Below are positions 8,602 through 41,015 of a DNA stretch of 64,000 bases, piece after piece. This DNA is from Chytriomyces cf. hyalinus JEL632. Taxonomy: Eukaryota; Chytridiomycota; Chytridiomycetes; Chytridiales; Chytriomycetaceae. Each line of letters opens with the position of its first letter. The first letter of the stretch is position 1. The position numbers were made by a program, and so were the translations under genes. The DNA is taken from positions 62,001 to 126,000 of the forward strand of contig JAIWWG010000063.1 of the NCBI GenBank assembly GCA_025435555.1. Direction: 5' to 3'. Under the pieces are notes generated by a model. It did no database searches. It worked only from the letters and a program-made list of their open reading frames with translations, and was not told the origin of the DNA.

Positions 8602-9475
8602 TGTTGAATATCAGTCTCAAGTGATGGAGCACTGTTTACTTCAATAAAGGTTAATTCTCCCCAATTCATCTCTTATTCTCTACTGCAGATAAAGAAGAGT
8701 CCTGCACCTCACCATTCCACCAACCTCAATACATATGGGCATGAATTATGACATTGAGTAGGGTAAACGTCCAGTAGATAACAAGGAATGAATACATGAA
8801 TCCTCGTGTTCTATAAAGGGTGCAGACTTGTAGATGACGATAGCTTATTCCACTATATGATTTCAACTATTCTTGCTCTAATCAAGCATAAACATGGTTG
8901 GAAAGCAAATGTTAGGAATTTATATGATTCTGGCATAGCTGGAAAGGTTTGCAACTACAGACCCGCAGGTCACTGGTTCAACCCACACTGCTGCCAACTC
9001 CATGCAGCTATCTTCTGATCTTTATAGGGAAATAAGCAGAAGAAGAGGAAATAGAAATCAACTTAGACAAGTATTCTATTACCACTTTTGTATGACTAAT
9101 CTGTCAAGCCAGTCAAGCAATTAATCAATAACCTTACCCACTGGGGGATATTGATGATAATTGACAAGCCTTTGCTGTCAGCCCAGTTCTGATTAATGAA
9201 TCAGCCTGAAAACTGATTTGTGAGCAATGACTCACTTTTTCAGCAATTTCAAACTGGAAAATGACAAATGAGTGATTCCACATCCATAATGACTTTTCTG
9301 ACAGAAAATCTCAATTATGACAAATGAAATGGAAAAAAAGGTGGCTGAGAAGTGAAATTGAAGAAAGCCTAATTAGATTTTATGGGAGACAAAAATGTAT
9401 ATAAGGAGAGCTGTTTTGATGTGTTGTGATTCACCTTAAGATAATAAATACTTATCAGCCCAAGTTCAAAACCAA
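8602..9475 (+). repeat. Dispersed repeat with tRNA-like head (SINE-like), uninterrupted copy
   Basis: This roughly 870-bp sequence recurs in inverse orientation, split in two, at 39368-39013 and 24285-23795. Matching landmarks are the GTTGAATATCAGTCTCAAG start, TTATTCCACTATATGATTTC, the tRNA-like block, AAGCCAGTCAAGCAATTAAT, and the end TTCACCTTAAGATAATAAAT. In its middle is a pol III-type promoter: A box TGGCATAGCTGG (8931-8942) and B box GGTTCAACCC (8975-8984), 32 bases apart as in tRNA genes. No terminal inverted repeats or long ORF were found. Whether the whole 870 bp is one mobile unit, or a SINE sits inside another repeat, cannot be decided from two copies. Confidence 0.8.
8931..8984 (+). 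promoter_or_regulatory. tRNA-like internal pol III promoter (A box and B box)
   Basis: TGGCATAGCTGG fits the A-box consensus TRGCNNAGYNGG and GGTTCAACCC fits the B-box consensus GGTTCRANYCC. Spacing is tRNA-like, but no clean acceptor stem flanks them, so this is a tRNA-derived sequence rather than a functional tRNA gene. The second copy has TGGCTTAGTT, then GTTAAGGTTAGC at the D-arm, which is where the LINE array is inserted. Confidence 0.65.
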
Positions 9476-12944: not shown

Positions 12945-12974
12945 TTATTTTTTTGACAAATCCGTCGATAAATC

Positions 12975-14854
12975 ATGGCACAGTCAGTCCACAATCACAG
13001 ACGCGTTTTCCAGCGTATCACTGATCCCTGCGCTTAACGACAACAACAAATCAACAGAATCAGCGCATTCGAAGCAGAACTGCTCGTATCCGAGCTCGCG
13101 TCCAAGTCCGTCACCTTCGAAGACATTGGAACAGCGCGCTGGTTCATGAACCACGAAAACCTGGAGCGCCTCAACATCCAATCACATCTAAACGTACAAG
13201 CGCAGTGCGAAGAGTTTGTGACGGAAGTTTTCTTGACGCATTCAAAGGTTTTTACTTTCAATCTCGTTGTCATGAATTTTGTTTTGATGCTGAGCAAAAA
13301 AACGCAGATTGATTTCCTGGTGCGTGACTTGTTGACCATTGAAGCTTGGAAGCGGAGAGTGTTTCCGAAGGTTTTGGACGTTGCGGCTGCGCATTCCATC
13401 AAGTCGTACATGATTGTGAGTTTATAAATCCGCCTCTCACACAGCAACTTCAACAATATTGCGCGCAATAGTTGTACCACGAAGCCACGTTGGTGAATCT
13501 GCTCGAAATTCTATTTTACAACAAAGAGTCGGTGCTCCAAGTGTCTGACTTGCTCGTGGATATTGTTGACTTCTGCCACCGCAAAATGACGTGTCTCAAC
13601 ACCTGGTGCGTTGCATTTTGAAATAAGAGACAGAATCGGTCTTGACATCGTATGTCAGGGAAGAGCCCATCGAGCCGCCATCAATGGCCCACACCGAACA
13701 ACAATCACTCCTCAAAAGTCAGCGGGACCTCGAATTCGGGATCGCCGTCTCTTCATTGTCCATCTTCCGATACATCACCGATGCTTGCTCCGATCTTCCG
13801 TTGGACGTATTAACACGCATTCTCAACGTCAATGAAATGATCTGTACCTGCGTCTTTTTGATTGAAAACGCGCCTTGGATTCAAAAATCCAGTTCGAATA
13901 AAAAGTACTCGCGCTTTGAAGCGGGCGCATGGAAGGATGTCGAGGATGAGGAAATGCAGCGGCTTGGGAAAGTTGAAGCTCAGGTATGTTGTTGTTGTTT
14001 CTTGCTGCACTGTACCTCTCGTTATTTTCCTCTCGTCAACTAAACATACAACAATTGGAACAGGTCTGGTTGGCACTGTATAACCTCCTCCTGGACGGAG
14101 AGTGCCGCAGGAAACTGATTTACACTGAACACAACAAGGCCGTAATTCTTCGGGTATGTGCAATGCCACTTGAAGCCAACGCTACTGTTTAAAACAAATG
14201 AATCCTACACAGCTAAGATCCTACGTGGAGCCCATCCTAGTTGACCAACTGCCGATGCTTGCACAAGTCCAGCGACACTTGGACGAACTGCTAATCATGG
14301 ACGTGCCCACCTCCATTGAAAAAAGGGGGTTCCTGATAGAGCAGGTGTGTTTTCCTTCGAAATACCTTTCTTCATCAATCAGAACGCAAATTCCTCATTC
14401 TTTCCTGACAACAGGTGCCGGAACTTTCGAGCGAAATCATGAGCAAATGCAATGTCCCTCGACTTTCGGCACGGTTCACAGCGCTTATTCAGGATGAAAC
14501 CAATGGAGCGGAGGGAATGTCTTCCATGGCGCTGGCGAAAAGGTCTGTATCGCGACAAAAACGCTGTTTCCGTTTAATTAACCGCTCGTCAAACTCTTCC
14601 ACAGCATGGCTGCCATGTACGACTTGGATAACCTCGACTCGCTCCTCGAAGATCCAAAATGCGGGAAATGCGGGCGCCTTGCAGAGAATCGATGCTCCAA
14701 ATGTAAAAGCGAGTGGTACTGTAGTCGTCAGTGCCAGGTTCAGTCGTGGCAGAAGCACAAGTCCATTTGTGCATTGATGGAGGAGAGTAACGCGTTCAAG
14801 GAGAACGAGCGGAGGAGCCAACAGCGCGTTTCAACTCTCGTCCAGGAACTTTGA
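12975..14854 (+). CDS. ZMYND10: ZMYND10-like axonemal dynein assembly factor
   Basis: ZMYND10 helps pre-assemble outer and inner dynein arms in the cytoplasm before transport into motile cilia. Exons: 13058-13415, 13472-13605, 13659-13983, 14064-14153, 14213-14344, 14415-14542 and 14605-14854, all in phase. The first exon is uncertain; ATG 12975 can join via GT at 12983. The order of conserved blocks follows the animal protein: MNHENLERLNIQ, TIEAWKRRVFPKV, HEATLVNLLEILFY, DIVDFCHRKM, SLSIFRYITDAC, VWLALYNLLLDGE, ILVDQLPMLAQVQRHL. The terminal MYND zinc finger is CGKCGRLAENRCSKCKSEW followed by YCSRQCQ and HKSIC. The MULE ends only about 30 bases before the candidate start, so most of the original upstream DNA is displaced. 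Confidence 0.93.
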
Positions 14855-22656: not shown

Positions 22657-22773
22657 AAGTTGTTATCTCTGATCTGGCTGTGCACACAACTAACAGTTGC
22701 TGTGTTTAAGGTATTAAAGAAGTTGTTATCTCTGATCTGGCTGTGCACACAACTAACAGTTGCTGTGTTTAAG
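22657..22773. repeat. 54-bp direct tandem duplication upstream of gag remnant
   Basis: Two identical 54-bp units, 22657-22710 and 22720-22773, start AAGTTGTTATCTCTGATC and end GTTGCTGTGTTTAAG, separated by 9 bases. They sit about 30-180 bases upstream of a Copia-like gag start, after a TATAAGAAGG motif (22622), so they may lie in the R/U5 part of a decayed LTR. No second LTR was found. Confidence 0.7.
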
Positions 22774-23690: not shown

Positions 23691-23794
23691 ATACTGGAAA
23701 GAATCAACTGGGAACACCACCCATCTGAATCAACTGCTCCCACACGTCAAAATATGTGAGGATTTGGTTTCTTGGGCTTTGATGATATTTATTA

Positions 23795-24285
23795 TCTTAA
23801 GGTGAATCACAACACATCAAAACAGCTCTCCTTGTATACATTTTTGGCTCCTATAAAATCTCATTGGGCTTTCTTCAGTTTCACTTTTGAGCGACTCTTT
23901 TTTCCATTTCATTTGTCATTTCATTTCTACAAATGAGATTTGATGTGAAATCATCCATTTTTCATTTGCAGTTTGAAATTGCTGAAAAAGTGAGTCAGTG
24001 CTGACAATTCAGTTTTTCAAGCTGATAAGTCATTCATTACTGGCTGACAGTTAAGGCTTGTTAATTATAATTATTATCCCCACACTGGGTAAGGTTATTG
24101 ATTAATTGCTTGACTGGCTTGACATATTAGTCATACAAAAGTAGTAATAGAATACTTTTCCAAGTTGATTTCTATTTCTTCTTCTTCTGCTTATTTCTCT
24201 ATAAAAATCAGAAGATAGCTGCATGAAGTTGGCAGCAGTGTGGGCTGAACCAGTGACCTGTGGGTCTTTGGTTGCTAACCTTAAC
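23795..24285 (-). repeat. SINE-like repeat, 3' half of the copy interrupted by the LINE array
   Basis: The reverse complement matches 8949-9475: from the GTTAAGGTTAGC D-arm block and AGACCCACAGGTCACTGG, through the B box GGTTCAGCCC and AAGCCAGTCAAGCAATTAAT, to TTCACCTTAAGATAATAAAT. It is collinear with the 5' half at 39013-39368. The two halves were adjacent before the 14.7-kb array was inserted. Confidence 0.85.
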
Positions 24286-24596
24286 GTTTTCAGTTGGTTT
24301 TATTCCGGTACGCTTTAGAAGGACTGGACGTGCAGCACGAAAGAAGGAGAAAACGCATGACTAGATGGGAAAAGATTTGACGGAGAAAAAACCCATAAAC
24401 AGGAGCCCACCCAACACAAAAACCCGGTAGAGATAGTCAATATCAAGAAGGTATAGTGAAAAGAGGATGGATGTTTTGGCAAATAAAAGGTAGAAACGAA
24501 AATCACAAAACAGTGAACACTCAAAGGCTTGAGCTGGCAACAGGTATACAACAGCCTGGCCGCACAATGGGACCAATAGAATAAAGAGAAACAACA

Positions 24597-27500
24597 TTAG
24601 CAGGGTCCGCGAGGACGGCCGCCAATCCCCAAACCACCAGGAAGGGGAACGCGAGGAGGAGCATTGACTTGAGCTTGCCGTCTTGGCCGTGGAGCTTGGG
24701 TCCGAGGAGGTAGAACAGCTGCGAGAGGTTCAAAATGCAGATCGATAATTTGGGTAGCTTGTCCGAGAATTTCGTGATCCAAGTCCTCGCCATCAAGGGG
24801 TTCCAGGTCGCGTGTGATAAACTCGATTTCTTGAGCTGGGGTAGCATCCGAGGCATCGTAGATGGCGTGGTATCCAGTGCAAGTAGTCCGAACTTGTTCA
24901 ATGAGTGTGGCCAGCACCGCCAACTGCGCCGGTTCCTCGTAGTTGAGGGTCCGGAGGCATAGGTCGATCTGGGTCATCCCCATACCAACTTCTGCTGCAG
25001 TCATAGGTCTGGTCACCCCCAACCGTTGGAAGACTTGTGGATCCACTTGAGTACATTCGACAGCATGTTGACGAGAGAGATTCTTGAAGCCATTGCAGTT
25101 GACGCAGTCTTGGTGTGTTGCCACACATCCAAGGAGCCACAGTGTGATGGGTCTTGAGACAACACGAGGGATATAAGCACCGGATTGAACCAATGGATGA
25201 CGTTGATGACGCGTTTTGGGCACGGGCGGGATAAGCACGTAGCATTAAAGTTAAAGAGAGAAGGTGGTACTCATCAATTGCCTTGTCGGGGAGTGAGACT
25301 ACACGTTTCGCAGCCCTGCCAAAGGGTACCAGTGGGTCAACGGATACAAGTGGGTGATCAACAGACAGATTCCGCCAGCGCTTGGCCATAAGGTCAGTGT
25401 TGCTGGACCAGAACTCGTTGTGCCTCATGGATGCAACGTACAGGGACTTGGAGTCTGGTGGGTGCAGCATCTGAGCTTGTAGCATCCGATACATGTGGAC
25501 TGTGAGGTTGGACTCGTCAGTGGAATGATGGAGCCGCCAAAGAAACCCAGCATTGAGAATCTTGGCCCTTGCAGCGATGGGTGTCACCGAGGAGACCTGG
25601 TGAAGTGCTGAAATCGAAGTGTTTCGAGCAACAGAAAAAATAAAACGCAACACCTGGTTTTGAACGAGTTGGGCCATGTGTGCTTCCTCGTCCGAGAGGG
25701 GGCGGAGACACATGCCATACTCCAACTGAGACCGAATGAAGACTGGATACAAACGGAGGGACTGAAGGTACCGGAAGCCGTATGCATTCATGCCTTTGGA
25801 CCGGAGCCAGTTGGCAGTGTTCTTGGCATCACTGCAGCGTTTTTCGAGTTGCTTAGTCATTTCAACACCTTGGTACGACATTGAAACCCCGAGGTACTCA
25901 GCTGAATCAACTTGTTGGACTGCTACACCATCCAATGTGAGCCGGATTGGGTCCCTTGCCAGCACAAATGTCTTGTCAGCACGAAATGTGGTGCCCCGAC
26001 GACGGCCCCATGCCACGCAGAAGTCGACTTGGGCTTGCGCGGTATCGATTCTAGCAAGGTTAGCAGTATCATCAGCAAAAAGAAGCGAGTTGATATCAAA
26101 TCTGGGTCCAGCCAGTGGGCCAACTTTGAAGCAACGTGCTTGGAAATTGGCACGTAGACCCCCGGGGAGTGTGTTGATCGAGGCATTGAACAAAGGAGGA
26201 GCCAGAACCGTTCCTTGTAGTAGGCCACGAAGCACTGGGATGCCTTGACTTTTGTGTCCTAAGACCAAAAGGTGAGCAACGCAATGATCAAACAAAGAAC
26301 GAAGAATCGGGAGCAAGACTCCCCTTGTCAACTCCGGATGTGGGTCCAATGGGTTGGTGGCCAGATCACTCCAGAGCAACTGTCGATTAGTACAATCATA
26401 AGCCGCCATGATGTCCATCAAGATGGTCACCATGGCGGGATTAGCAACCATCAGTTCATGAAGATTAAAAACCTGCTCCATCGTTGAACGTTGTGGCCTG
26501 AAACCACCTTGAGCCATGTCGAGCATCCTATGAGTTAGTACCATGACTTTGGGTCGCAAACACCCTTCAAAAGCCATACGTAGACGCGAGATAAGGGAGA
26601 TGGGTCGGTAGTTTGCAACGTCCATCTTGTCTCCTTTGTTTTTCCAGACAAGCGCCACATTTGCCTTCCCCCACTGTGGTGGCGTTACACGCAGTATCAC
26701 CAGCAGTCGAAAAAACTCGCACATGACTTCCTTGAGCTCCTCAGCCGAATAGGCCAGCATCTCCCCATACACATCATCATCTCCTGTTGCTTTCCCACGT
26801 GGTTGGCATCTCAAGACTTCCGCGATGTCCTCTTCAGAAAAAAGGGGGGTAATGCTTGCGTATTCGAGGGGAACCATGGGCTGGGTGGGGTCAGTCATCT
26901 CCAGGGAACCAGGATCCGGCTGATCGGTACCCGTTGGTTGGGCACCAAAAGTTGTGGAAAAATACGCGCAGTGGTTGTCCATGTGGTTGGGATCCAACCC
27001 ACAGTGGGACCTGTTCCGTCTATGTCTTGCGTTTGCGAGTCGCTTGGCTTCACCGGCTGGATCGTACAAGCGTTCGTCCGCTGTTTTGTTGAATAAACGT
27101 TTTCGTGAGCGTAATTCAGCACGACGAAGAATGACTTTCCATTTTCGAGCACGCGCCCAAAGAACCGCATGGCCAACAGATCCCACAGCACTTTTCGACG
27201 CGTTTCGACAGGCTTCAACAACAATGGATCTGATCTGTGCAACGTGAGACTCGCGCATTGGCGCATGGATACAACCGCCTCGAAACTGCAAAATTCCCGC
27301 TGTTTCGCGTGCTGACTCCACCAGAGCTGTCGAAATCTCCGTCGCGATTTTACCTGCAATAACACGGCGATCTTCCCAAAGAATTGGGGAATTTTCGACG
27401 CGTTTATTGTTTGCATTCACCAACTCCGCGTCAATAAGTTGCGAAATTGCGATGCAGCGGGGAACCAAGTTCGAAATAAAGTCCTCGCAATTTGCGAGGA

Positions 27501-28248
27501 GGTTTCTGATGTTCGTCCGCGTGAATGGTGGTTTTTCGAGACCGTCTGGATACAAAACCGTGAAGATGATGGGGCGGTGATCCGACAAGACAGTTGAATC
27601 ATGTTCGAGCACCTGGAGGTTGGAGACCCGGTTTTTACCAACATCATTAACAAAAACGAGATCGGGGATTCCATGACCTGTTTCCGTGACAGATGTCCAT
27701 TTCCCCTGAGTTGGCGCCACAAAGTTCCAAAACCCGTCATTGACCAGGGTTCGAATCCAGTCGCGCCGCACAGGGTCTTGACAGTTGGCGTGGTCTCCGA
27801 ATTGCTGGTCCCGAGCATTGAAGTCCCCCATGAGGATCATTGGCGCATTGGGATACAGCTGTGTAATGGAAGTAATAAAAATATCGAAATCAAGAAGGTC
27901 TTGTGCCCCCAAGCGAGGCGCAAGATATATAGCAATGACCACCATGTCCCCAATGAGCGAGACACACCAGCGACCGTCATTGTGTTCTGCGATGGATTTA
28001 GTGGTGAAACGATCATCGGTGCGTGCAATGAGCACCCCGTCACGCCCCAGCCGATCTATGTGTGGGGATTCACCGCGTGATTCAGAAATCACGCCCTTGA
28101 GAGGACAGGTGTCGTTCCTAGCTAGAGTGTGTTCAGTTAGTGCGAAAAAAGTAATCGAAAAGTTAGTGATAAGCTGGTCTACTTGCAGTGCTTTCGAGCC
28201 TATGAGGTTTTTGTTAATATTTAATAAAGCAAAGGTTGTCTCAATCAT
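24597..28248 (-). pseudogene. LINE A ORF2: APE endonuclease-reverse transcriptase, frameshifted near its end
   Basis: It opens at ATG 28248, overlapping the ORF1 stop as ATGA. Residues about 1-240 are an exonuclease/endonuclease/phosphatase domain (FALLNINKNLIG, ALTEHTL, MILMGDFNARDQQFGDH, SDHRPIIFTV). The RT, about 510-770, has NYRPISLISRLRMAF, GGFRPQRSTMEQVF, TILMDIMAAYDCTN, LLQGTVLAPPLFN and the catalytic LLFADDTANLA near residue 720. After LSLTLMLRA (about 25235) the frame shifts: compared with element B roughly 20 nt are missing. The remainder (24597-25238), with a CCHC knuckle (CVNCNGFKNLSRQHAVEC), lies in another frame. So the enzyme core is intact but the C-terminal knuckle is lost. 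Confidence 0.88.
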
Positions 28249-29936
28249 TGAGACTCCCCGGATTCTACGCTAAGATTCCAGATTTTCCTGTGCAGCCGGG
28301 CTTTGAGACTAGCATAAGCAAAGTTCTTTGCTTGTGCCATGAGCTCGGACTGCGACAAGATACTCGAACCAACACGCGAAGATGGCACCGTCAATGGGAA
28401 CTTGATCCGTTCTGGAGTTTCCGGCAGCCGTTCCTGTGCTTGGGATTTTTTTTCTTCAAAGTTAGTGCGAGTGATTGAATTTGGGTAAGAAAAATTCAAG
28501 TTATTTTCGAAATAAATATGACGTGCACAAGACTCAATCTGATATGCTGTGAACTCGTCAACATTGGAGCGAGCAATCTCCTGCATCACGCGCACGCCCT
28601 GGCGCATCGCACGCTCGAGCATGGTTCCGCGACGAAGGATGGTTGCTCGCTCCATGCGACTTGCACTCAGCTTTTCGAAGATTCTGTGTTTGGGTGTGTC
28701 GAGAATGTTAGTGGTAATAAAAATTGCTGGTAAATCACTCCCCGGATTGGACAGAGTCGCAATGGCCTCATCCAGGTCCGAGTCCCTGATGAACAACTCC
28801 AGCACGGACTTTTTGATGCCAACGAACGAGATCTCACGAATCGAACGCGGGATTTTGTAGACATCAAACAAGATGGATCGAATTTTGACAAATGGATCTG
28901 TGACAAGATCCGTGCTGTTACCGAGGGGGTTTTCAATAAAAATATTTCGATAAACGACACTCGCCCGAGGAGCTGGTGCCGTTTGTGCATTCGCGCGATT
29001 TTCCTGGATCAGTTTCAAGTTTTCGATAAAATCCGCGTTTGACGCCATCTGGGCATTCGCAATGTGGGTCAATTTTCGCGCTCTGATCTTCTGCTCGAAG
29101 TTCAGGCGCTTTGTTTGCTGTTGCTGTTGTTGCTGCTGCTGTTGTGGGGATGGTTTCGAGACTGCGCGTGCACTTTCGGGTGCCTTCCCCTTCTCAGCTC
29201 CAACAACTTCCCCAACTGGCTTTGCTGCAGCTGCTGCATACGATCCACGGGCAGCGCTCTTTGAACGCGAGCGTTGGACCGCTTTCCCGCCTCTCCCCTT
29301 CACCAATCCCCGTTGCTGCGTCTGCTGTTTTGTGGGTTTCGGTGGCGGAGGCGGGCCCGATACAATTTCGTGGTCACTGGGAGATGAGCGCGGCTCCAAC
29401 AGTGCCTCCAGCTCTGTAATTCGCTGTTGCTGCTGCTTTATGATCGCGTCCTTCTTCTTGAGTTCGAGTTGGAGCAGATCTGTGAGGTCTTTTTTTACTT
29501 TAGAGTTTTTCATGTTGAAAAAATCGTTAAGATTTTTGGCCTTAGCTTCATTAATTCCAAAGATTTCTGAAAGCGCCGCGATTTCGGTGGCCATGCGGTC
29601 CCCGGCATCGCGTTCGTCCATCAGCGATTCGACTCCAGTAGTGGGTGTTGGCGTGTTGGAACGGTGCACTTCATCGTCTTCGGAATCAATTTCAGAATCA
29701 GGCGGTGGAGGGGCAGAATCGAGTGGGGACATTGGTGAGTCAATTGGTGACGAAAATGGGAGTGCACGTTTTCGAGATGGCGTTTTCGAGATCAATAAGG
29801 ACTGCTGTGAATCAATGGCTGAATCAATTGCAGAATCAAAATCCACGATCTGAGAATCTGCTGCCAGCACTGCTTCCGGCTCGAGAGAATTCGAGATCTG
29901 GGACGCCTCTGCAAGCACCGCATCTGGGTCGAGGGA
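28245..29936 (-). pseudogene. LINE A ORF1, 5'-truncated
   Basis: About 560 codons remain, homologous to element B's ORF1 from its SLDPDAVL segment on. Contents in order: Ser/Asp-rich linker, a coiled coil with KKDAIIKQQQQRITELEALL, a Pro/Gln-rich basic region, then the conserved C-terminal domain (NIFIENPLGNSTDLVTDPF, RSIREISFVGIKKSVLELF, ATLSNPGSDLPAIFIT). That domain is shared with B and C and looks like an RNA-binding fold of the ORF1p type. The first codons of the open frame come from element B's 3' tail, so no native start survives. The stop TGA overlaps the ORF2 ATG. Confidence 0.8.
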
Positions 29937-30222
29937 GCTAACCTTAACGTTTTCAGTGTGTTTTATTCCAATACGCTTTAGAAGGAAAAGACATGCATCA
30001 CGAGAAAGAAAAAACGCGCATCGATATGGGAAAACCGTGACTCGGTAAAAAACCCATAACAAGGGGCCCACCCACCACAAAAACCCGGTAGAGATACTTG
30101 TATCAAAAAGGTAGAGTGAAAAGAGGATGGTTGTTATGGCAAAGAAAAGTTGGGAGCGAGATCACACAGAGGTGGGGTGCTCAAAGACTTGAGCGCACGA
30201 CCAATAGAGAAAGAAACAACAG

Positions 30223-33200
30223 CTAGCGGGGTCTGCGAGGACGGCCGCCAATCCCCAGACCACCAGGAAGGGGAACGCGAGGAGCAGGAGCACCGACTTG
30301 AGCAGGCGGAGCACGAGGAGGTCGACGAGAGAGAGTTCGAGGAGGTAGAACAGCTGCGAGCGGTTCAAAGTGCATGTCGACAAGCTGGGTAGTGTGGGCA
30401 AGGATTTCGTGGTCCAAGTCCTCACCATCGAGGGGTTCCAGTTCACGCGTGATGAATTCGATTTCTTGAGCCGCAGTAGCGTCCGAGGCATCGTAGATGG
30501 GTTGGTATCCAGTGCAGGTAGTCCGAACTTGTTCGATGAGAGTGGCCAGCACCGCCAACTGCGCCGAGTCCTCGTAGCTGAGGGTTCGGAGGCAGAGATC
30601 GATCTGGGTCATTCCCAGTCCTAGTTCTGCTGCAGTCATTGGTCGGACCACCCCCAACTGTTGGAAGACCTGGGGATCGACTTGAGAGCATTCAACAGCG
30701 TGTTGACGAGAGAGGTTCTTGAAGCCATTGCAGTTCACGCAGTCTTGGTGGGTCGCAACGCATCCGAGTAGCCAAAGAGTGATGGGTCTTGAAACAACGC
30801 GAGGGATGTAAGTGCCAGCGTGGACCAGTGGATGCCGTTGGGGTCGCTTTTTTGGAACTGGGAGGATCTGTGCAATGCGTGATTTTGAGGCACGGAGCAT
30901 CAACTTTAGCGACAAGGAATGGTACTCATCGATTGCATCGTCTGGGAGGACAAGGAGATGCTTCGCCGCTTTTCCAAATAGGACTGTTGGGTCAGCTGCT
31001 GTGAGAGGGTGATCGACTGACAGATTCCGCCACCGTTTTGCTGCGAGGTCAGTGTTGCTGGACCAAAACTCGTTTTGCCGCGTGGATACAACGTACAACG
31101 ACTGGGAGTCTGGAGGGTGCAACATCCGAGCTTGCAGCATCCGGTACGTGAGCACCGTGAGGTTGGACACGTCTGTTGAGTGGTGGAGTCGCCAAAGAAA
31201 TCCAGCGTTGAGAATCTTGGCCCTTGCTGCAATTGGCGCCACTGACGAAACCTGATGAAGTGCTGAGATCGAAGTGTTCCGAGATACTGAGTAAATAAAA
31301 CGCAACACCTGATTTTGGACAAGTTGCGCCATATGTGCTTCGTCATCTGTAAGCGGCCGAAGACACATGCCATACTCCATTTGTGACCGAATGAAGATGG
31401 GGTACAGCCGAAGGGACTGCAAGTACCGGAAGCCGTACGCGTTCATGCCTTTCGTCCGAAGCCAGTTGGCAGTGTTCTTGGCGTCACTGCAACGTTTTTC
31501 GAGCTGCTTAGTCATTTCCACACCTTTGTGAGACATGAAAACCCCAAGATACTCAGCTGAATCGACTTGTTGGATTGCGTGCCAGCACAAATGTCTTGTC
31601 TGCACAAAACGTTGTTCCCCGTCGACGACCCCACTCCACACAGAAATCGACTTGGGCCTGGGCTGTGTCGATTCTAGCAAGGTTAGCGGTATCATCAGCG
31701 AAAAGAAGCGAGTTAATGTCCAGTTTGGGTCCTGCAGGTGGTCCGACTTTGAAGCAACGTGCTTGAAAATTGGCACGCAGGCCCCCCGGGAGAGTGTTGA
31801 TCGACACATTGAACAGCGGAGGAGCCAACACCGTCCCTTGTAGCAATCCGCGGAGTACTGGGATACCCTGACTTTTGTGTCCGAGAACCAAAAGGTGAGC
31901 AACACAGTGATCAAACAATGAACGAAGGACCGGAATCAAGACTCCCCTGGTCAGCTCTGGGTGTGGGTCCAGTGGGTTGGTCGCGAGATCGCTCCAGAGA
32001 AGCTGTCGATTAGTGCAATCGTAGGCAGCCATGATGTCCATCAGAATGGTCACCATGGCTGGGTTAGCAACCATCAACTCGTGAAGATTGAACACCTGCT
32101 CCATCGTTGACCGCTGTGGCCGGAAACCACCCTGGGCAACGTCAAGCATCCTATGAGTAAGTACCATGACTTTGGGCCGTAGACAACCCTCAAAGGTCAT
32201 CCGTAAACGCGAAATGAGGGAGATGGGACGGTAGTTGGCAACGTCCATCCTGTCTCCTTTGTTTTTCCACACCAGCGCCACGTTTGCTGTTCCCCACTGT
32301 GGTGGCGTTACACACAGTATCACCAACAGTCGGAAAAACTGGCACATCATTTCCCGTAGCTCCTCAGCCGCATAGGCCAGCATTTCCCCGTACACCGCGT
32401 CGTCGCCGGTGGCTTTCCCCCGTGGTTGACAGCGCATGACTTCCTCGACGTCATGTTCAGAGAAGAGAGGGGATACGGAAACATAGGGGAGGGGGACCAG
32501 CGGTTGGGCTGGATCTGTAGCGTCCATCGAAGCTGCATCCGGCTGATCTGTTCCCGTGGGTGGTGCGCCGAAGGTGGTAGCAAAGTGGGCCATGTGGTTG
32601 TCCATATTGTCCGGATCCAAACCACAGTGGGACCGATTCCGTCTATGTCTTGCATTCGCGATTCTCTTAGCTTCCCTGGCTGGATCGTAAAGACGTTCAT
32701 CTGCAGTTTTGTTGAAAAGGCGTTTGCGTGAGCGTAATTCTGCACGTTTCAAGACGACTTTCCATTTTCGAGCGCGTGCCCACAAGACTGCATGACCGAT
32801 GGATCCAACAACACTCTCTGAAGCACGTTTGGTGGCTTCAAGTACGATGGGTTTGAGCTGATCAACGTGAGACTCGCGCATTGGTGCATGGATACAACCG
32901 CCTCGGAATCGAATAACTCCTGCTGCTGATTGTCCCGCATCCACCAAAAGTGTCGAAATCGCGGTCGCAAATTTTTCCGCGATGTTTCGACGCGTTTCCC
33001 ACGTAAGTGCCTCATTTTCCCGTCGTTTGGCGTCGATTCGGGCAAGTTCGGTGTTGATCTGACCCTCGAGGGCTTCGATACCAGGAACCAATGTCGTAAT
33101 AAAGTCGTTGCGCTTCTCGCTCAGTTTTCTGATGTTGGTGCGTGTGAATGGGGGCTTCTCAATGCCATCCGGGAATGACACAGTGAAGATGATTGGTCGG

Positions 33201-33871
33201 TGGTCCGACATGACAGTTGTGTCATGTTCGAGCACCTGTAAGTTCGAAATCCGGTTTTTACCAATATCATTAACAAAAACAAGGTCAGGGATTCCATGAC
33301 CTGTTTCCGTGACAGACGTCCATTTCCCAGAGGTAGGTTTGACGTAGCTCCAGTATCCTTCGTTAGCCAAGTTCCGAATCCAGTCTTTCCGAACAAGGTC
33401 ACTGCAGTCCGCATGGTCACCAAACTGGCGATCACGTGCATTGAAGTCGCCCATCAGAATCTTTGGCGCATTTGGATACAGCTGGTCGATGGAGAGAAGA
33501 AAGTCATCGAATAAAGTTAGTTCAAGTGCCCCAAGACGTGGGGCCAGATAAGCAACAATAACGACAATGTCGCCAATCAACGAGGCACACCAGTGGCCTT
33601 CCTCATGTTCGGCGACAGATTTGGTGGTGAGGCGGTCATTCGTGCGTGCAATCAGCACACCGTCGCACCCCCCTTTATATAAATTCGGCGATTCGCCGCG
33701 TGATTCAGAGATAACGCCCCGGATGGGACATGTATCTCTGGTACCTAGAGTGTGTTCAGTTAGTGCTATATAATCAATTGATAAGTTAGTAATAAGGTGG
33801 TTGATCTCCAAAGCTTTTGAGCCTATGAGGTTTTTGTTAATATTTAATAATGCAAAGGTTGTGTTAATCAT
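30223..33871 (-). pseudogene. LINE B ORF2: APE endonuclease-reverse transcriptase with one internal deletion
   Basis: Start ATG 33871 overlaps the ORF1 stop (ATGA). The endonuclease (KILMGDFNARDRQFGDHAD, SDHRPIIFTV) and RT (NYRPISLISRLRMTF, LLFADDTANLA near residue 720) are intact. At about 31582, after DKTFVLAR, some 34 nt present in element A (coding PIRLTLDGVAV) are missing. The frame shifts and continues in 31582-30223 as QQVDSAEYLGVFMSHKG, through RFIYSVSRNTSISALHQVSS, the CCHC knuckle (CVNCNGFKNLSRQHAVEC) and a Pro/Arg-rich end. So B lost the thumb/linker junction while A lost its knuckle frame; the lesions are independent. Confidence 0.88.
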
Positions 33872-35994
33872 TGCGACTCCCCAGATTCAATGCTAAGGTT
33901 CCAAATCTTGCGGAAGAGTCGCACTTTGAGACTCGCACGGTGAAAGTTTCTGGCTTGCGCCATAAGCTCCCCGTGTGAGAGTTGGTGCGCTCCAACTCGC
34001 TTGGGTGGGATCTCGATTGGGTACGGCATCCGTTCCGGTGTGCTTGGTAAGCGCTCCTGTGCTTGGGATTTTCTCTCAAGAAAGTTGTCGCGGTTAATTG
34101 AATTTGGATACTCGAAATTCAAGTTATTTTCGAAATAAATGTGGCAAGCACAGGCCTCAATTTGGAAGGCCATGTACTCGTCCACGTTAGACCGTGCAAT
34201 CTCCTGCATCACTGTGATGCCTTGACGCATTGCGCATTCAAGCATGATGCCACGACGCAAGATCACCGACCGTTCGACTCTTGCTGGATTTGCGTGCTCC
34301 AGTCTTCTGTGTTGGGGGGTGTCGAGAAGGTTAGTCGTAATAAAGAGAGTTGGAAGACCACTCCCCGGATTGGACAAGGCGTTGATTGCTTCCTCCAGAT
34401 CCGAGTCTTTGACGAAAATTTCCAGCACCGACTTTTTGATACCAACAAATGAAATCTCCCGAACTGTACGTGGGACTTTGTAGATATCAAACAAAATCGA
34501 CCGGATTTTGAAGAATGGATCTGTAACAAGATCCGTGCTGTTACCGAGCGGGTTTTCAATAAAAATGTTTTTATAAGAAACACTCGCCCGGGTGGTCTGC
34601 TCAGAGGTGGGATTGGCTCGGGCTTCCTGGACGCGTTTCAGGTGTGCCAGGAAGTCTTCGCCTGTTGCTGTTTGAGCGTTCGCGATACGATCCAATTTTT
34701 TCACTCTGGACTTCTGTTCGAAGTTCAGGCGCTTTGGTGGCTGAGCTGGCTGACGTTGATGTTGCTGCTGCCTTGGTTTCGAGGCTGCACGCGCGTTTTC
34801 GCGTTCCGCCACTTTTCCGTCTTCAGCAACTCCCACGACAGACTTTGCTGCCGCAGCAGCGTAAGTGCCAACAACAGCACTCTTTGATCGTGAACGTCTT
34901 GCCACTCCACCGCCACGTCCCTTTGTCAGTCCACGTGGCTGCATCTGCTGTGCTGATGGCTGCGGTGGGGGTGGTGGTCTGGATACAATGTCGCGGTCAC
35001 TGGGAGTTACACGAGACTCCAGCAGTGCCTCCAGTTCAGCAATGCGGCGCTCCTGCTGTTTAATCAGGGCGTCTTTCTTTTTGATCTCCTTTTTCAATGC
35101 ATCTGTAATATCCTTTTTGACTTTAGAGTTTTTTAAGTTGAAAAAATTGTTAAGTTTTTCAGCCTTAGCTTCATCGATCCCAAGAATGCTTGACAGCACC
35201 GCGATTTCGGTGGCCTGGTGGTCGCCTCCATCACGTTCATCCACGAGTGATTCCATGCCTGTGGCTGGAGTTGGACTCGCTGGACGATTATCAAAGTCAA
35301 AATCCATGTCTGACATGGCCGCCGATGGTGGCGCCTGGGCAGGTGATGGTGTCGATACGGGTCGTGCGCGTTTACGTGATGGCGTTTTTGACACCATCGT
35401 TGAGGTTTGCGATTTGATTGCGGAGTCAATTGCTGCATCAAAGTCTAGAATCTGAGAGTCCGGTGCGAGAATGATCTCCTGTGAATCAAGTTTCGACGTC
35501 TGTGTGGCATTGACCAACACAGCGTCTGGGTCCAGGGAGTCGGGGACTCCAAACTCAGAGGATTGCGATTGTGTGCATGGTACTCCTTGTGACGATGAAG
35601 TACCTGTGTTTTGGGTGAGTGTCGATGGAAAGCATGATGTAATTGCTTTTTGATTCTTAGCTGGAAGCGTTGTGGTTTTCGGTGCCATTTTCCGCTCTGC
35701 GAGAAGATCTAAGTAAAGTTGGTGAACTTCTTTAGCTTTTTCGACAATGTCCTGAAGTTCTGGATCACTTCCCAGGTTCAGGCAGAATCTGAGGAGGCGT
35801 GGTCTGGAACAAGTAGGATTGTGTCGACAGCAAAGCGATGTGCTTCGGACTCCAAGCGCGTTGGGGTTTCCTGTTCCGCCGGCTGAGAGCTTCTCTTTGC
35901 CACAGATGAAACAGAATAAACGCCCTTGTGCGAGTTTCCACAGGTCTTTCTCAGCCTGTGCGTATTGTTCGCCGCTGGACACTTTTTGTTGCAA
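33868..35994 (-). CDS. LINE B ORF1 protein (zinc-binding, coiled-coil, RNA-binding)
   Basis: The frame is open for 708 codons. Its most upstream residue in this frame is a TTG; the first ATG is MAPKTTTLPAK near 35687. The region before that ATG is clearly coding by comparison with element C (WKLAQGRLFCFICGKEK against WNLAKGHLVCPYCGNRK, then RPRLL.FCL). Real translation therefore starts upstream through splicing or a non-AUG codon. Later parts: Ser/Thr-rich linker with LDPDAVLVNATQ, coiled coil KKDALIKQQERRIAELEALL, basic low-complexity region, and the C-terminal domain with IFIENPLGNSTDLVTDPF and VPRTVREISFVGIKKSVLEI. Presumed role: nucleic-acid-binding partner of the ORF2 enzyme. No internal stop. 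Confidence 0.8.
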   Translation of the reverse strand: MQQKVSSGEQYAQAEKDLWKLAQGRLFCFICGKEKLSAGGTGNPNALGVRSTSLCCRHNPTCSRPRLLRFCLNLGSDPELQDIVEKAKEVHQLYLDLLAERKMAPKTTTLPAKNQKAITSCFPSTLTQNTGTSSSQGVPCTQSQSSEFGVPDSLDPDAVLVNATQTSKLDSQEIILAPDSQILDFDAAIDSAIKSQTSTMVSKTPSRKRARPVSTPSPAQAPPSAAMSDMDFDFDNRPASPTPATGMESLVDERDGGDHQATEIAVLSSILGIDEAKAEKLNNFFNLKNSKVKKDITDALKKEIKKKDALIKQQERRIAELEALLESRVTPSDRDIVSRPPPPPQPSAQQMQPRGLTKGRGGGVARRSRSKSAVVGTYAAAAAKSVVGVAEDGKVAERENARAASKPRQQQHQRQPAQPPKRLNFEQKSRVKKLDRIANAQTATGEDFLAHLKRVQEARANPTSEQTTRASVSYKNIFIENPLGNSTDLVTDPFFKIRSILFDIYKVPRTVREISFVGIKKSVLEIFVKDSDLEEAINALSNPGSGLPTLFITTNLLDTPQHRRLEHANPARVERSVILRRGIMLECAMRQGITVMQEIARSNVDEYMAFQIEACACHIYFENNLNFEYPNSINRDNFLERKSQAQERLPSTPERMPYPIEIPPKRVGAHQLSHGELMAQARNFHRASLKVRLFRKIWNLSIESGESQ

Positions 35995-36853
35995 AGTCCG
36001 GACTGTCCGGACAAAAAAGAAACAAAAGAAGAACCAGCCGCGCGCGAAGCGAACGTGGCAGCCGGTTTTCGAAAGCTCGGTTGGATTCGGGTACCGCGGG
36101 AGGGGTCAGACAGTAAATCCCAGGTCTGGGGGACTGTCGCCTGTGGAGAGAGGGGGTGTTGAGTTGTAAGGAAATAAAGAACACCCACCGGCGCTCTCAA
36201 AATCGATACAACGCCGTGATCACCGCCGTCGATTGTTTTGATAGGTCCGAGAGACTGTGCTCCTGTGATTTGAAGCGTGTCCGACGGTTTTTGATTGAGT
36301 TGGTTGGTGATTGTGTACTTTGACAGCACACAACAACACCAACAAAGAACGAGAACGCGCGACAGTAGACAGCCGCCTTTGTCGCAGATACAAGGTTTTC
36401 GATGCCGGCGATCACAACCAGAGTGGTTTGAGATCGATCCGACTCGATTTGAGAGAGTCTGTGTAGAGAGTGTGAAGTTAGTAAACAACAACTCACTCAC
36501 TTACCGTTGCTTTGATCCAGAAAGAGCACCAATGTGCTTCCTAGATGTTCCTGAGTAGAGTGCCGGGACTGAGAGCACTGTCTGACGTTGCTGTAGCTGT
36601 TGCTGTTGTTGGTGGGCTGTTGGACTATTTTCCAGCACCGCACGCGTTTTTCCTTAACCTTTCCGCTAACCTTAACGTTTTCAGTGTGTTTTATTCCAAT
36701 ACAGCCCCGAGGGGGATCAGACGTGCTTTGCGACAAGGAAAAACGCGTAAACTAGGAGATATTCAGGAAGAATGAATGGACTAAGAGTTTTCTGAGGTAG
36801 ACGGGTGGGAACAGCGAAGACAAGTGGGGGATATCCCAGGCGAGAGAGGAAAG

Positions 36854-36928
36854 TCAGGCCTGGTCGTAATCAAAAGAAAAGACCAAAAGATAAGAGAAAA
36901 GAAAGGAAAGGAAATCCGAGGTTATCAT
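36854..36928 (-). pseudogene. ORF2 stub of element C
   Basis: A 24-residue reading frame (MITSDFLSFLFSYLLVFSFD...) starts at an ATG overlapping the ORF1 stop in the same ATGA arrangement as intact ORF2 in A and B. It ends at TGA 36856-36854, where ORF2 should continue for over 1,100 codons. Only the position and first residues (MI-T) recall ORF2. Confidence 0.5.
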
Positions 36929-39012
36929 GAATCTGCTTCAGCTTGACACTCTGCCAGAGCTGATAGTGGAAAGGCACGAATAAAGTTCTTGACTTGCTGC
37001 TTTGCTTCCTCTTTGGGGAGTTCACATCGCTTTGCAACTAGATTAACTTGCTCCGCTGAGGCTTCGAGGGGGCGGAGTTCTCCGTCTCTGATCAAATTGT
37101 CTGCTGCGGCTTTGAGTGCATCGAGATTTGTACGGGAGATGTCATTTGGGAATAGGAATGGCTTGAGGGATCCTGATTCAAATAGGATAAGGGCTGCTGT
37201 GTAGATTCGGTTCTTCAAGTAGCTGTTGACATTGGATGTAGCCACGCTGCACATGACTGGGACACGTTCACGCAAGGCACGTTCCAGCATGACAGCACGG
37301 CGCCTTACGAGGGCCTCCTCCATCTGCTGTTCACTGGGAGCAAGGTGGGGGGGGAGGCCAAACACTCGGTGGTCTGGTACTTGGGCAAGGTTGGATGTCA
37401 CAAAGATGGACGGAAGACTTGGGTTGAGGGGTGTTGAGAGCTTGGTGATTGCATCATCATAGTCTGAGACCTTGATGAAAATCTCGAGGGTGGACTTGGC
37501 TGCACCAATGTAGCTGATCTCACGGATAGTGCGAGGGACTTTGTACTCGTCAGCAAGGATGCTTCGAATGCGCCGCAGTGGGTTCTGGACAAAACGTGTC
37601 CTGTTCCCAAGTGGGTTCTCGATAATGAAGGACTTGTACTCGACTGGCTCCCGACGAATGGGTGGGTTGGTACGACGTTCTTGTTGCTTCTTGAGATCAG
37701 CCAGTAGTTCCAGATTGGAGGCTGCTTGAGCTGCTGCTGTCTGCTCTTGCTTGGCTTGCTTGAGCTTTTCGGCATACGATGGGAACTGACGAACTGGGTT
37801 TGGTGTGGACGTCTGCTGAACTGCAGCGGCATATGATGCTGGACCATTGGTTGCAGGTGTGCTCCGCAGTGATCCCACCACTGCTCCACCACGGCCAACA
37901 CGCTTACCACCGCGAGAAGGTGCAGCACCACGCTGCTGGACCTGCCATGCCGCCGGTGCTGTCACTGCTGGGGGTCCATTCGATGCTGCTGGTGTTCCAT
38001 GTTCGATGATTTGCCTAAGTTCCTGAATTTCGACGCGCTGCTGCTCAATCTGGTGCTCCTGCTCCGCGATTTTCGATTCCCTGTCTCGTAGTAGCACCTG
38101 GATGGCCTCGCCGTGCTGCTGGTTCGATTGGTTGATGGTTCGTTGAATAAAGCTCATGATCATCTGGGCTTTGTGCTGACTGCCATCAAAGACAGCAGCC
38201 AGATCACTCAGATCGCAATTTAATTCGTTGGTCTCGACAGCAGCATCGTCTAGAGGGGCCGTCGGGGGGTTCTGATGTGCCTGGGGTGGGCTGTCAGACT
38301 CGCGCGCTCGTTTCTGGGCCTGCTTGGGAGTGAGAGGGGACTCAGACTGCACAGGATCGATTTGGGAGGAGGAGGACGAGGAGGAGGAGGAGGCAAGAGA
38401 CCAGTCCCGCTGCATAGCGGGAGTGGTCTCTATGCTCTGGACGAGGTTTCGGGAGGATCCGAGTTGAACTGATGGAGTTGCTGCTGTTGCTGCTGCTTTG
38501 CCACTTGAAAAAGAGAGAATGGGCTGCACCAACTTGGGTGCAGCACCCTTGCCATCACTCTTGCTGGCCATTCCTAGACCGCTTTTTCGCGCTGATTTCA
38601 GATCTGTATAGATCTGCTTGACAGCTTGTGCCTTGGTGAAGATGTCATGTGTTGGTGAGGATGGGTCTTGATCAATACCAAGACAGAACTCCAGGAGCCG
38701 GGGCCTGGAGCACTGGGGACTCTTTTTGCACGCAAGGGATCGTTTGGTTGCACCCAGAGAGTTGAGTTTACGAGCAGCGCCTGCATTGATCTTTCTGTTG
38801 CCACAGTATGGGCAAACGAGGTGGCCTTTTGCAAGGTTCCAGAGTTCGAGTTCTGCAGCACTGTAGATCTCTGCGGGAGAGCTAATACTGAAGGATGGTG
38901 GCTGGTGGCCGGTTGCAGAGAGTGTTGGTGGTGCGGTGGTGGTGTTGGTAGTTGCAGGTTGGCAAGTTGGTGTGCTGATGTCAACAACACGATTTCGAAA
39001 AAGTCTTTTTTT
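36925..39012 (-). CDS. LINE C ORF1 protein
   Basis: The frame is open from the element's 5' edge (and, by chance, on into the tRNA-like flank) with no ATG before MASKSDGKG near 38572. Order of features: N-terminal zinc-binding block (HLVCPYCGNRK, LACKKSPQCSRPRLLEFC), Ser-rich linker, coiled coil (DRESKIAEQEHQIEQQRVEI), Ala/Gln-rich region, and C-terminal domain (FIIENPLGNRTRFVQNPLRR, VPRTIREISYIGAAKSTLEI, LPSIFVTSNLAQVPDHR). It is similar to B over the zinc block and C-terminal domain. About 700 codons without a stop suggests selection or youth. Stop TGA (36927-36925) overlaps an ATG, as in A and B. Confidence 0.8.
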   Translation of the reverse strand, partial: KKRLFRNRVVDISTPTCQPATTNTTTAPPTLSATGHQPPSFSISSPAEIYSAAELELWNLAKGHLVCPYCGNRKINAGAARKLNSLGATKRSLACKKSPQCSRPRLLEFCLGIDQDPSSPTHDIFTKAQAVKQIYTDLKSARKSGLGMASKSDGKGAAPKLVQPILSFSSGKAAATAATPSVQLGSSRNLVQSIETTPAMQRDWSLASSSSSSSSSQIDPVQSESPLTPKQAQKRARESDSPPQAHQNPPTAPLDDAAVETNELNCDLSDLAAVFDGSQHKAQMIMSFIQRTINQSNQQHGEAIQVLLRDRESKIAEQEHQIEQQRVEIQELRQIIEHGTPAASNGPPAVTAPAAWQVQQRGAAPSRGGKRVGRGGAVVGSLRSTPATNGPASYAAAVQQTSTPNPVRQFPSYAEKLKQAKQEQTAAAQAASNLELLADLKKQQERRTNPPIRREPVEYKSFIIENPLGNRTRFVQNPLRRIRSILADEYKVPRTIREISYIGAAKSTLEIFIKVSDYDDAITKLSTPLNPSLPSIFVTSNLAQVPDHRVFGLPPHLAPSEQQMEEALVRRRAVMLERALRERVPVMCSVATSNVNSYLKNRIYTAALILFESGSLKPFLFPNDISRTNLDALKAAADNLIRDGELRPLEASAEQVNLVAKRCELPKEEAKQQVKNFIRAFPLSALAECQAEADS

Positions 39013-39368
39013 GCTAACCTTAACAACTAAGCCAGAATCATATAAATTCCTAACAATTACTTTCAACTATGTTTATGCTTGATCAGAGCAAGAATAGTTG
39101 AAATCATATAGTGGAATAAGCTATCGTCATCTGCAAGTCTGCGCCCTCTATAGAATACAAGTATTCGTGTATTCATTCCTTGTTATAGTATCTACTAGAT
39201 GTTTACCCTACTCAATGTCATAATTTATGCCCATATGTATTGAGGTTGGTGGAATGGTGAGGTGCAGGACTCTTCTTTATCTGCAGTAGAGAATAAGAGA
39301 TGAATCAGGGAGAAATTAACCTTTATTGAAGTAAACAGTGCTCCATCACTTGAGACTGATATTCAACA
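39013..39368 (-). repeat. SINE-like repeat, 5' half of the interrupted copy
   Basis: The reverse complement matches 8602-8951: GTTGAATATCAGTCTCAAG, the TCTGCAGATAAAGAAGAG region, AACATAGTTG, TGTTAGGAATTTATATGATT, then CTGGCTTAGTT (A box) and the 12-mer GTTAAGGTTAGC. The LINE array starts exactly after that 12-mer. Confidence 0.85.
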
Positions 39369-40337: not shown

Positions 40338-41015
40338 GGACAGCAGGCAGCGCTGCTTACCTGTACACCGTCACTTGGACCCATGGCTCCCTGCCCAGGT
40401 GGGAGAGTCCCCGTCAGAGGTCCAAGGATACAGTCATATGCACTTTGGACGTTGGTTGGATAGTTTCTTATTCAAATCGTAGCTTTTTAGATTGGTAAAG
40501 GCCCAACAGTCCTTGGGGACGTTCGGGGGATTTCCATCTCGGTTCTTTATAATTTCTACCGTGAAAAAATAGAAAACCATGGAGATACTCACGATTTTCC
40601 ACCCATGAGTGATTCTTTCATGTTCTATTCCAAAGGGTATAAATGGTAGAGCTTCCACAAGGCAAATAAACATCTTCTTAGACCAAAATCATCGTTGTAG
40701 CACCTAGTCCTCAAGTCACAAACCCTCGTACTGCATGCCACCACCATTTGTACCAACAGTTATCATCTTTGTCAAGAGCTTCAAAGAGAAGGCATTGGTT
40801 GATCCCCTCAATGAGAGTTTTACGGCGGCTCTTTCTAAGCATGAATTTGAAACCCCCCTGTTCAAAAATTCGATTTCTGGCCGCCTCCGAAATCAATTTC
40901 TAATTTCTCAAAAATCACTTTTTATTTTTCCAAATTTCTGAATTTGAAACCCCCTATTGTCTTAATATTATTCATAAAAAACCAAACTCCCCCCTTCCCA
41001 TGCAGAAAACCACGT
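40338..41015. other. Intergenic, possible upstream part of the Harbinger relic
   Basis: Nothing firmly coding. Minus-strand ORFs at 40434-40673 and 40711-40896 (with a Trp-rich CWYKWWWHAVRGF piece) could be the N-terminal part or accessory ORF of the Harbinger relic, but no family motif is present. The last 100 bases are the 3' flank of SEN1. Confidence 0.35.

Follow-up and report, generated by a model that had tools for sequence, protein, structure and literature searches.

One question raised by this locus is why the same 12-nucleotide sequence stands at every edge of a head-to-tail array of retroelements that interrupts a dispersed repeat. Contig C203 carries this array on its minus strand, within a stretch of 64,000 nucleotides (C203:62001-126000, referred to here as the window). 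The array includes long interspersed nuclear elements (LINEs) with two open reading frames (ORF1 and ORF2). The sequence-only reading of this DNA proposed that a LINE recognizes tRNA-like D-arm or A-box sequence and cuts inside it. The reading favored here, with a probability of about 0.87, is that the array is an ectopic stack of telomere-repeat-targeting LINEs with an endonuclease of the apurinic/apyrimidinic type (APE-type LINEs), and that the 12-mer is their target site duplication (TSD).

Four copies of the 12-mer GTTAAGGTTAGC had been placed at the outer 5' edge and at the 3' end of each unit, and all four are present there on the minus strand. With one mismatch allowed, the window has 4 matches, all exact, against a mean of 0.14 in shuffled sequence (four or more in 0 of 100 shuffles). 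Genome-wide the sequence is not rare, with 5 exact matches in 37.8 Mb and 6 for the reversed control pattern; the non-random feature is the occurrence of four copies at element edges inside 15 kb. The features are given below in 5' to 3' order of the minus strand, followed by a second copy of the host repeat.

39025..39368, minus strand: interrupted host repeat, 5' part; the last base of its box A-like TGGCTTAGTTG is also base 1 of the 12-mer
39013..39024, minus strand: outer 5' copy of the 12-bp TSD GTTAAGGTTAGC at the host repeat edge, also found once in the uninterrupted paralogue L001
36677..39012, minus strand: unit 1, an ORF1-only non-autonomous LINE relative of 2336 bp without ORF2 (ORF1 frame 36925-39012)
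36665..36676, minus strand: 12-mer at the junction of units 1 and 2
29949..36664, minus strand: unit 2, a family A LINE of 6716 bp (ORF1 33868-36105; ORF2 split, 31553-33886 and 30223-31935)
29937..29948, minus strand: 12-mer at the junction of units 2 and 3
24286..29936, minus strand: unit 3, a family A LINE of 5651 bp, 5'-truncated inside ORF1 (ORF2 frame 24898-28269)
24274..24285, minus strand: outer 3' copy of the 12-mer, with host repeat beyond
23760..24273, minus strand: interrupted host repeat, 3' part
8602..9363, plus strand: uninterrupted copy of the host repeat, in which the 12-mer is GGAAAGGTTTGC, matching the telomere 12-mer at 7 of 12 positions

The description of the array as three LINEs holds for units 2 and 3, which are APE-type, while unit 1 is an ORF1-only relative. 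The ORF2 of unit 3 matches PF14529 (E 9.9e-11) and PF00078 (E 2.3e-15) in Pfam, corresponding to an AP-like endonuclease and a reverse transcriptase (RT), and the split ORF2 of unit 2 has both in the part at 31553-33886. With Pfam searched up to E 10, ORF2 showed no endonuclease family other than APE. Searched against sequences of solved structures, ORF2 matched L1 chains alone up to E 1, and the endonuclease domain matched nothing up to E 10; by structure prediction, the closest fold to the endonuclease model is the TRAS1 endonuclease. A separate ORF1 lies upstream of ORF2, and its stop overlaps the first ORF2 ATG as ATGA in both window LINEs, so that the ORF2-bearing elements have the make-up of APE-type two-ORF LINEs. 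Units 2 and 3 are 75.7% identical in nucleotides over 5416 columns, and 13 protein relatives were found, the best with 49% identity (JGI entry). Unit 1 has no Pfam match at E 0.001, and a relaxed search gave only E 0.035 or worse. Its ORF1 is 34% identical to that of unit 2, and nucleotide similarity between the two units is confined to the last 26 nt, which are identical. Contigs C94, C210, C199, and C10 have four further near full-length copies of unit 1, in which 689-695 of 713 aa match at 95-96%, and the C210 copy has one internal stop. The predicted ORF1 structure had a low confidence score (predicted local distance difference test 48.7) and was not used; a zinc-ribbon-like cysteine pattern and a coiled coil were seen by eye only. 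In families A, B, C, and D the tail ends in ACTGAAAAC and has no poly(A). Folding of six tails gave no support for a 3' hairpin (z-scores -0.07 to 1.44), and a search of 5 loci for a 5' self-cleaving ribozyme or other known RNA gave no Rfam match up to E 5. A truncated ORF1-only element at C10:56504-56560 (L013) bears a family A 5' leader, perhaps through deletion between neighbors or a template switch.

The 12-mer is a TSD that was in the target before insertion, because the uninterrupted paralogue L001 on contig C3, which reads ...TGGCTTAGTTGTTAAGGTTAGCGACC..., has exact GTTAAGGTTAGC once. The host repeat is approximately 0.87 kb long. The joined flanks of the window array align to the uninterrupted copy at 8.9 kb (88% over 770 columns), and that copy does carry, as had been claimed, GGAAAGGTTTGC at the corresponding place. 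Identical 12-mers are found at both outer edges at seven sites (C2, C221, C199, C210, C4 minus, C198, and C203); at C180 and C166 the two edge 12-mers differ at a single base, and the C4 plus stub has only a candidate with 3 mismatches.

The elements target the telomere repeat (TTAGGG)n and not tRNA D-arm sequence. When tails were gathered by tail sequence alone, regardless of flank, there were 22 exact matches, and GTT follows directly in all 22. Over 13 distinct flank-unselected sites, 127 of 156 positions match GTTAGGGTTAGG, which is (GTTAGG)2, including 83 of 91 in the first seven bases; random 12-mers from the window gave a mean of 39.0 and a maximum of 63 in 20,000 sets. These 13 sites are the fairer test of the motif, because C210 and C166 were found solely through a search that selects telomere-like flanks. 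In that search, the tail joined to the telomere 12-mer gave 89 matches with up to 3 mismatches, compared to 1 for the control. Insertions in the telomere repeat itself are found, and the non-telomeric copies are at telomere-like 12-mers; the telomere 12-mer is matched at 10 of 12 positions by the window 12-mer and at 9 of 12 by the usual 12-mer of the host repeat.

Some tails of the related families depart from this motif. Among 57 C and D tails, 18 are more than 3 mismatches from the telomere 12-mer, and 13 of these read GTAACTTTTAGG or GCAACTTTTAGG. Of the remainder, C78:1380 and C238:30663 resemble the telomere 12-mer apart from an indel, C1 and C32 do not resemble it, and the flank of C96:6985 was not read. 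The 13 are family D tails (TGAATAAAAGAAACTGAAAAC and close variants), followed by GTAACTTTTAGG and once by GCAACTTTTAGG (loci L031, L032, L034, L035, L094, and L096-L102), mostly inside another dispersed repeat, an empty relative of which is in the window at approximately 40400-40580. It is possible that the target has switched in this sister family, which also stacks.

In this genome telomeres carry the repeat (TTAGGG)n, which is terminal in contigs C94 and C209 and lies 5.8 kb (C111) and 0.6 kb (C193) from contig ends. All four perfect tracts adjoin a retroelement. Stacked elements adjoin the tract of C94, and the tract of C111 is followed by a family C LINE that ends ...ACTGAAAACGTTA at the contig end. 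In C209 (C209:193400-193648, L068) a break within ORF2 of a family C LINE leads directly into TTAGGG at the contig end, which looks like telomere healing of a broken end. In eight of nine contigs of at least 30 kb, element 3' ends point toward the nearer contig end; the miss is C66, which, like C78, is filled end to end by arrays and is uninformative for orientation, and C49 was left out of this count. The tract of C193 adjoins element T, a second retroelement, which is poly(A)-tailed and lies in TTAGGG repeats in the opposite orientation, with 24 genome matches (sites include C94:22266-22811, L017; C193:248440, L067; and C76:35224, L090). RT-like residues were seen by eye in L091, and a Pfam search of element T found nothing.

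The proposal that insertion restores the site at the 3' end of the element, permitting further head-to-tail insertion, is supported by the empty site in L001 and by the junctions. Beyond the 12-mer, the 22 A-type tails lead into an element in the same orientation (12), a telomere tract (1), or other DNA (9), and an element follows in 15 of the 15 B tails examined. The junction library was partly cut from the same loci, giving self-matches at C10:58155, C137:4722, both C203 junctions, and C66:24860; these stretches are nonetheless LINEs by their frames. Variants of the 12-mer are shared within arrays. Of the 36 same-contig pairs among the 41 tails whose 12-mers are non-canonical, 33 agree (shuffle mean 3.5, maximum 17), with C10 contributing 21 of the 33; when all 86 tails are taken together, agreement is found in 121 of 149 pairs, compared to a mean of 43.6 and a maximum of 75 in shuffles. 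Three of the 89 matches (C49, C80, and C111:525511) were dropped from these counts because of a difference in the tail or in the base right behind it. Variants are mixed within C78 and within C142, and some recur on several contigs. In C10 the variant GTTAGGGTTATG stands after A, ORF1-only, B, and C type tails. Because different elements share one marked 12-mer, the variants point to repeated insertion into a renewed site.

From the TSD, the target motif, the array structure, and the shared variants, all of which are directly observed, the following process can be proposed. The ORF2 endonuclease would prefer GTTAGGG(TTAGG) and would nick the C-rich strand at CCTAAC^ within two TTAGGG repeats, and the nicked strand would prime reverse transcription of an RNA ending ...ACTGAAAAC. 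A second nick 12 bp away would make the TSD 12 bp long, equal to two telomere repeats. Since such a TSD recreates the target, the next element could insert in the same orientation, and arrays would grow head-to-tail, presumably in serial order. At chromosome ends the LINEs would stack inside (TTAGGG)n with their 3' ends outward, and in the window the same process would have acted at a telomere-like 12-mer inside a dispersed host repeat. The ORF1-only elements probably join by presenting the same 3' end to the ORF2 of a partner, that is, by mobilization in trans.

Some of the observations concern tRNA genes. The sequence-only reading had suggested tabulating the DNA beyond each tail for tRNA genes and head-to-tail junctions; the junctions were borne out, and tRNA neighbors were found at two of the eight flank-unselected sites classed as non-telomeric (C2, C4 plus, C4 minus, C180, C198, C199, C203, and C221), so a looser link to tRNA genes is possible. 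In C2 (L006:468-573) a LINE lies 8 bp upstream of a tRNA-Tyr gene with an 11-nt intron, and in C4 plus (L007:1364-1521) a LINE lies 21 bp upstream of a tRNA-Ile gene; both elements point away from the gene. These are the only tRNA genes found by ARAGORN in 108 extracted stretches (359 kb, partly overlapping), and each is beside a LINE end. The two sites appear to exceed chance expectation (approximately 1e-5 by an estimate assuming 1000 tRNA genes), which fits a sequence preference acting in open chromatin bound by RNA polymerase III (Pol III). One alternative is therefore dual targeting, in which the endonuclease sets the GTTAGGG-like sequence and open or Pol III-bound chromatin (telomere ends, regions upstream of tRNA genes, and Pol III-driven repeats) sets the place outside telomeres. 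The position of the window site inside a box A-like repeat is in keeping with this. However, the cases number just two, and in one of them the TSD has decayed; at the other six of the eight sites the stretches examined contain no tRNA gene, and the host repeat has no Rfam match, so dual targeting is considered possible but rather unlikely.

It is improbable that the array grew from a single insertion by recombination, through unequal crossing-over or break-induced copying. Growth of this kind is reported for MoTeR arrays (PMC7367193), and B units of a regular 5.45 kb are found in C66 and C78. Two C10 units have a common truncation and 98.3% identity over 1194 bp, so recombination does contribute to arrays in places. 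The window units, however, are different from each other, with an ORF1-only unit that has 26 nt in common with its neighbor and two LINEs that have diverged, and in C10 a single 12-mer follows tails of four types.

Insertion by recognition of a tRNA D-arm or A box is less probable still, and the D-arm was rejected as the target. A box A-like motif does precede the 12-mer, which is also present in intact L001, and the two copies beside tRNA-Tyr and tRNA-Ile have the same geometry; at both genes, though, the element is outside the tRNA and not in its D-arm. The tRNA-like block itself was found in part: L001 has box A-like and box B-like matches to the consensus, but the window copy has no box B match. 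ARAGORN found no tRNA in the window, and Rfam gave nothing for L001 up to E 5, so that a tRNA-derived short interspersed nuclear element is suggested by the box matches in L001 and by neither program. A search for the repeat site gave 96 matches (control 3), of which one is the edge of the window array itself, two have unrelated 12-mers, and 93 are uninterrupted, mostly reading GTTAAGGTT(C/T)GC. The number of uninterrupted copies is at least 93, as the copy at 8.9 kb is too divergent to be counted. The window copy is the only one seen to be interrupted, and the search for tail plus 12-mer, which would have caught any other with either common host 12-mer, gave no second. The D-arm 12-mer matches 109 positions over the 13 flank-unselected sites, compared to 127 for the telomere 12-mer, and many copies are arrayed with telomere 12-mers in between. 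Least probable of all is that the 12-mer is carried in the element RNA by 3' read-through of the donor flank, as array transcripts could run into the next 12-mer, since the 12-mer also marks the outer 5' edge, occurs a single time in the empty paralogue, varies by site and matches the 5' flank at single-copy sites, and the seven sites with identical outer edges contradict this.

The 3' ends of SART/TRAS elements carry poly(A), and Tx1 elements are APE-type. Telomeric elements that have been named include SART/TRAS, GilM/GilT, Zepp1, MoTeR1, Athena, and Tx1-1_ACar (PMC10088271). The SART/TRAS elements of Bombyx and Tribolium are described as having ORF1 and ORF2, an AP-type endonuclease, and insertion in telomere repeats (PMC4700185), as do the elements of this study, whose endonuclease fold is closest to TRAS1. 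The present elements differ in having a host from another kingdom, TTAGGG rather than TTAGG, a ACTGAAAAC end without poly(A), a 12-bp TSD of two repeats, an ORF1-only partner, and ectopic internal arrays. They work like SART/TRAS, the likeness being one of structure and target. Bombyx is reported to have two telomeric LINE families in opposite orientation (PMC10088271), similar to the poly(A) element T opposite the ACTGAAAAC-tailed LINEs. Tx1-1_ACar of the anole, a vertebrate, is also telomere-associated, and is compared here by its listing (PMC10088271) rather than by sequence or structure. The fungal telomeric LINEs MoTeR, FoTeR, and Cnl1 group with CRE-type elements bearing a restriction-like endonuclease (PMC12857005). 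The present elements are likewise fungal, telomere-associated, and in arrays, but they have an APE endonuclease instead and two ORFs. Cnl1 is a close parallel: it too has ectopic copies in telomere-like sequence, and insertion into arrays of its own has been described (PMC12810828). Dictyostelium TRE5 is an APE-type LINE with ORF1 and ORF2 that lies 40-54 bp upstream of tRNA genes, facing the opposite way, with targeting that needs box B (PMC5911963). Two of the present copies are upstream of tRNA genes and point away, but most are at telomere-like 12-mers (the 89 matches) and do not have the fixed position beside tRNA genes of TRE-type elements. No APE-type telomere LINE from a fungus was found in the titles and opening lines of abstracts of the open-licence papers retrieved, although insect ones are known; the present data suggest that they occur in fungi.

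Outside the array, the window has a MULE/FAR1-like transposase frame of 679 aa (10955-12994, minus strand) and an exact 54-bp direct repeat at 63-bp spacing (22657-22773). The genome has matches to chitin synthase (best 556 bits, with a model that also fires in 4 of 14 bacterial controls), to the flagellar protein RIB43A (0 of 14 controls), and to the telomerase RNA-binding domain (0 of 14 controls), and therefore the matches point to a flagellated fungus that keeps telomerase. In a broader picture, which is tentative and held at somewhat less than even odds, a zoosporic-fungus-like genome with telomerase would host a community of APE-type LINEs, an ORF1-only partner, and an opposite LINE-like element that share one 12-bp, two-repeat dock. 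Each insertion would renew the dock, an internal telomere-like 12-mer, sometimes beside a tRNA gene, would become a self-renewing dock with a heritable barcode, and the target of one sister family would have moved to a dispersed repeat.

In ordinary telomeres TSDs are hard to read because the target is repetitive; for example, the TSD of FoTeR was not identifiable to its authors for this reason (PMC12857005). The mutated 12-mers described here are natural barcodes that reveal the length of the TSD and point to re-insertion into the renewed site, and they are a readable natural record of the target preference of an endonuclease. A sister family with a changed target is material for studying shifts in specificity.
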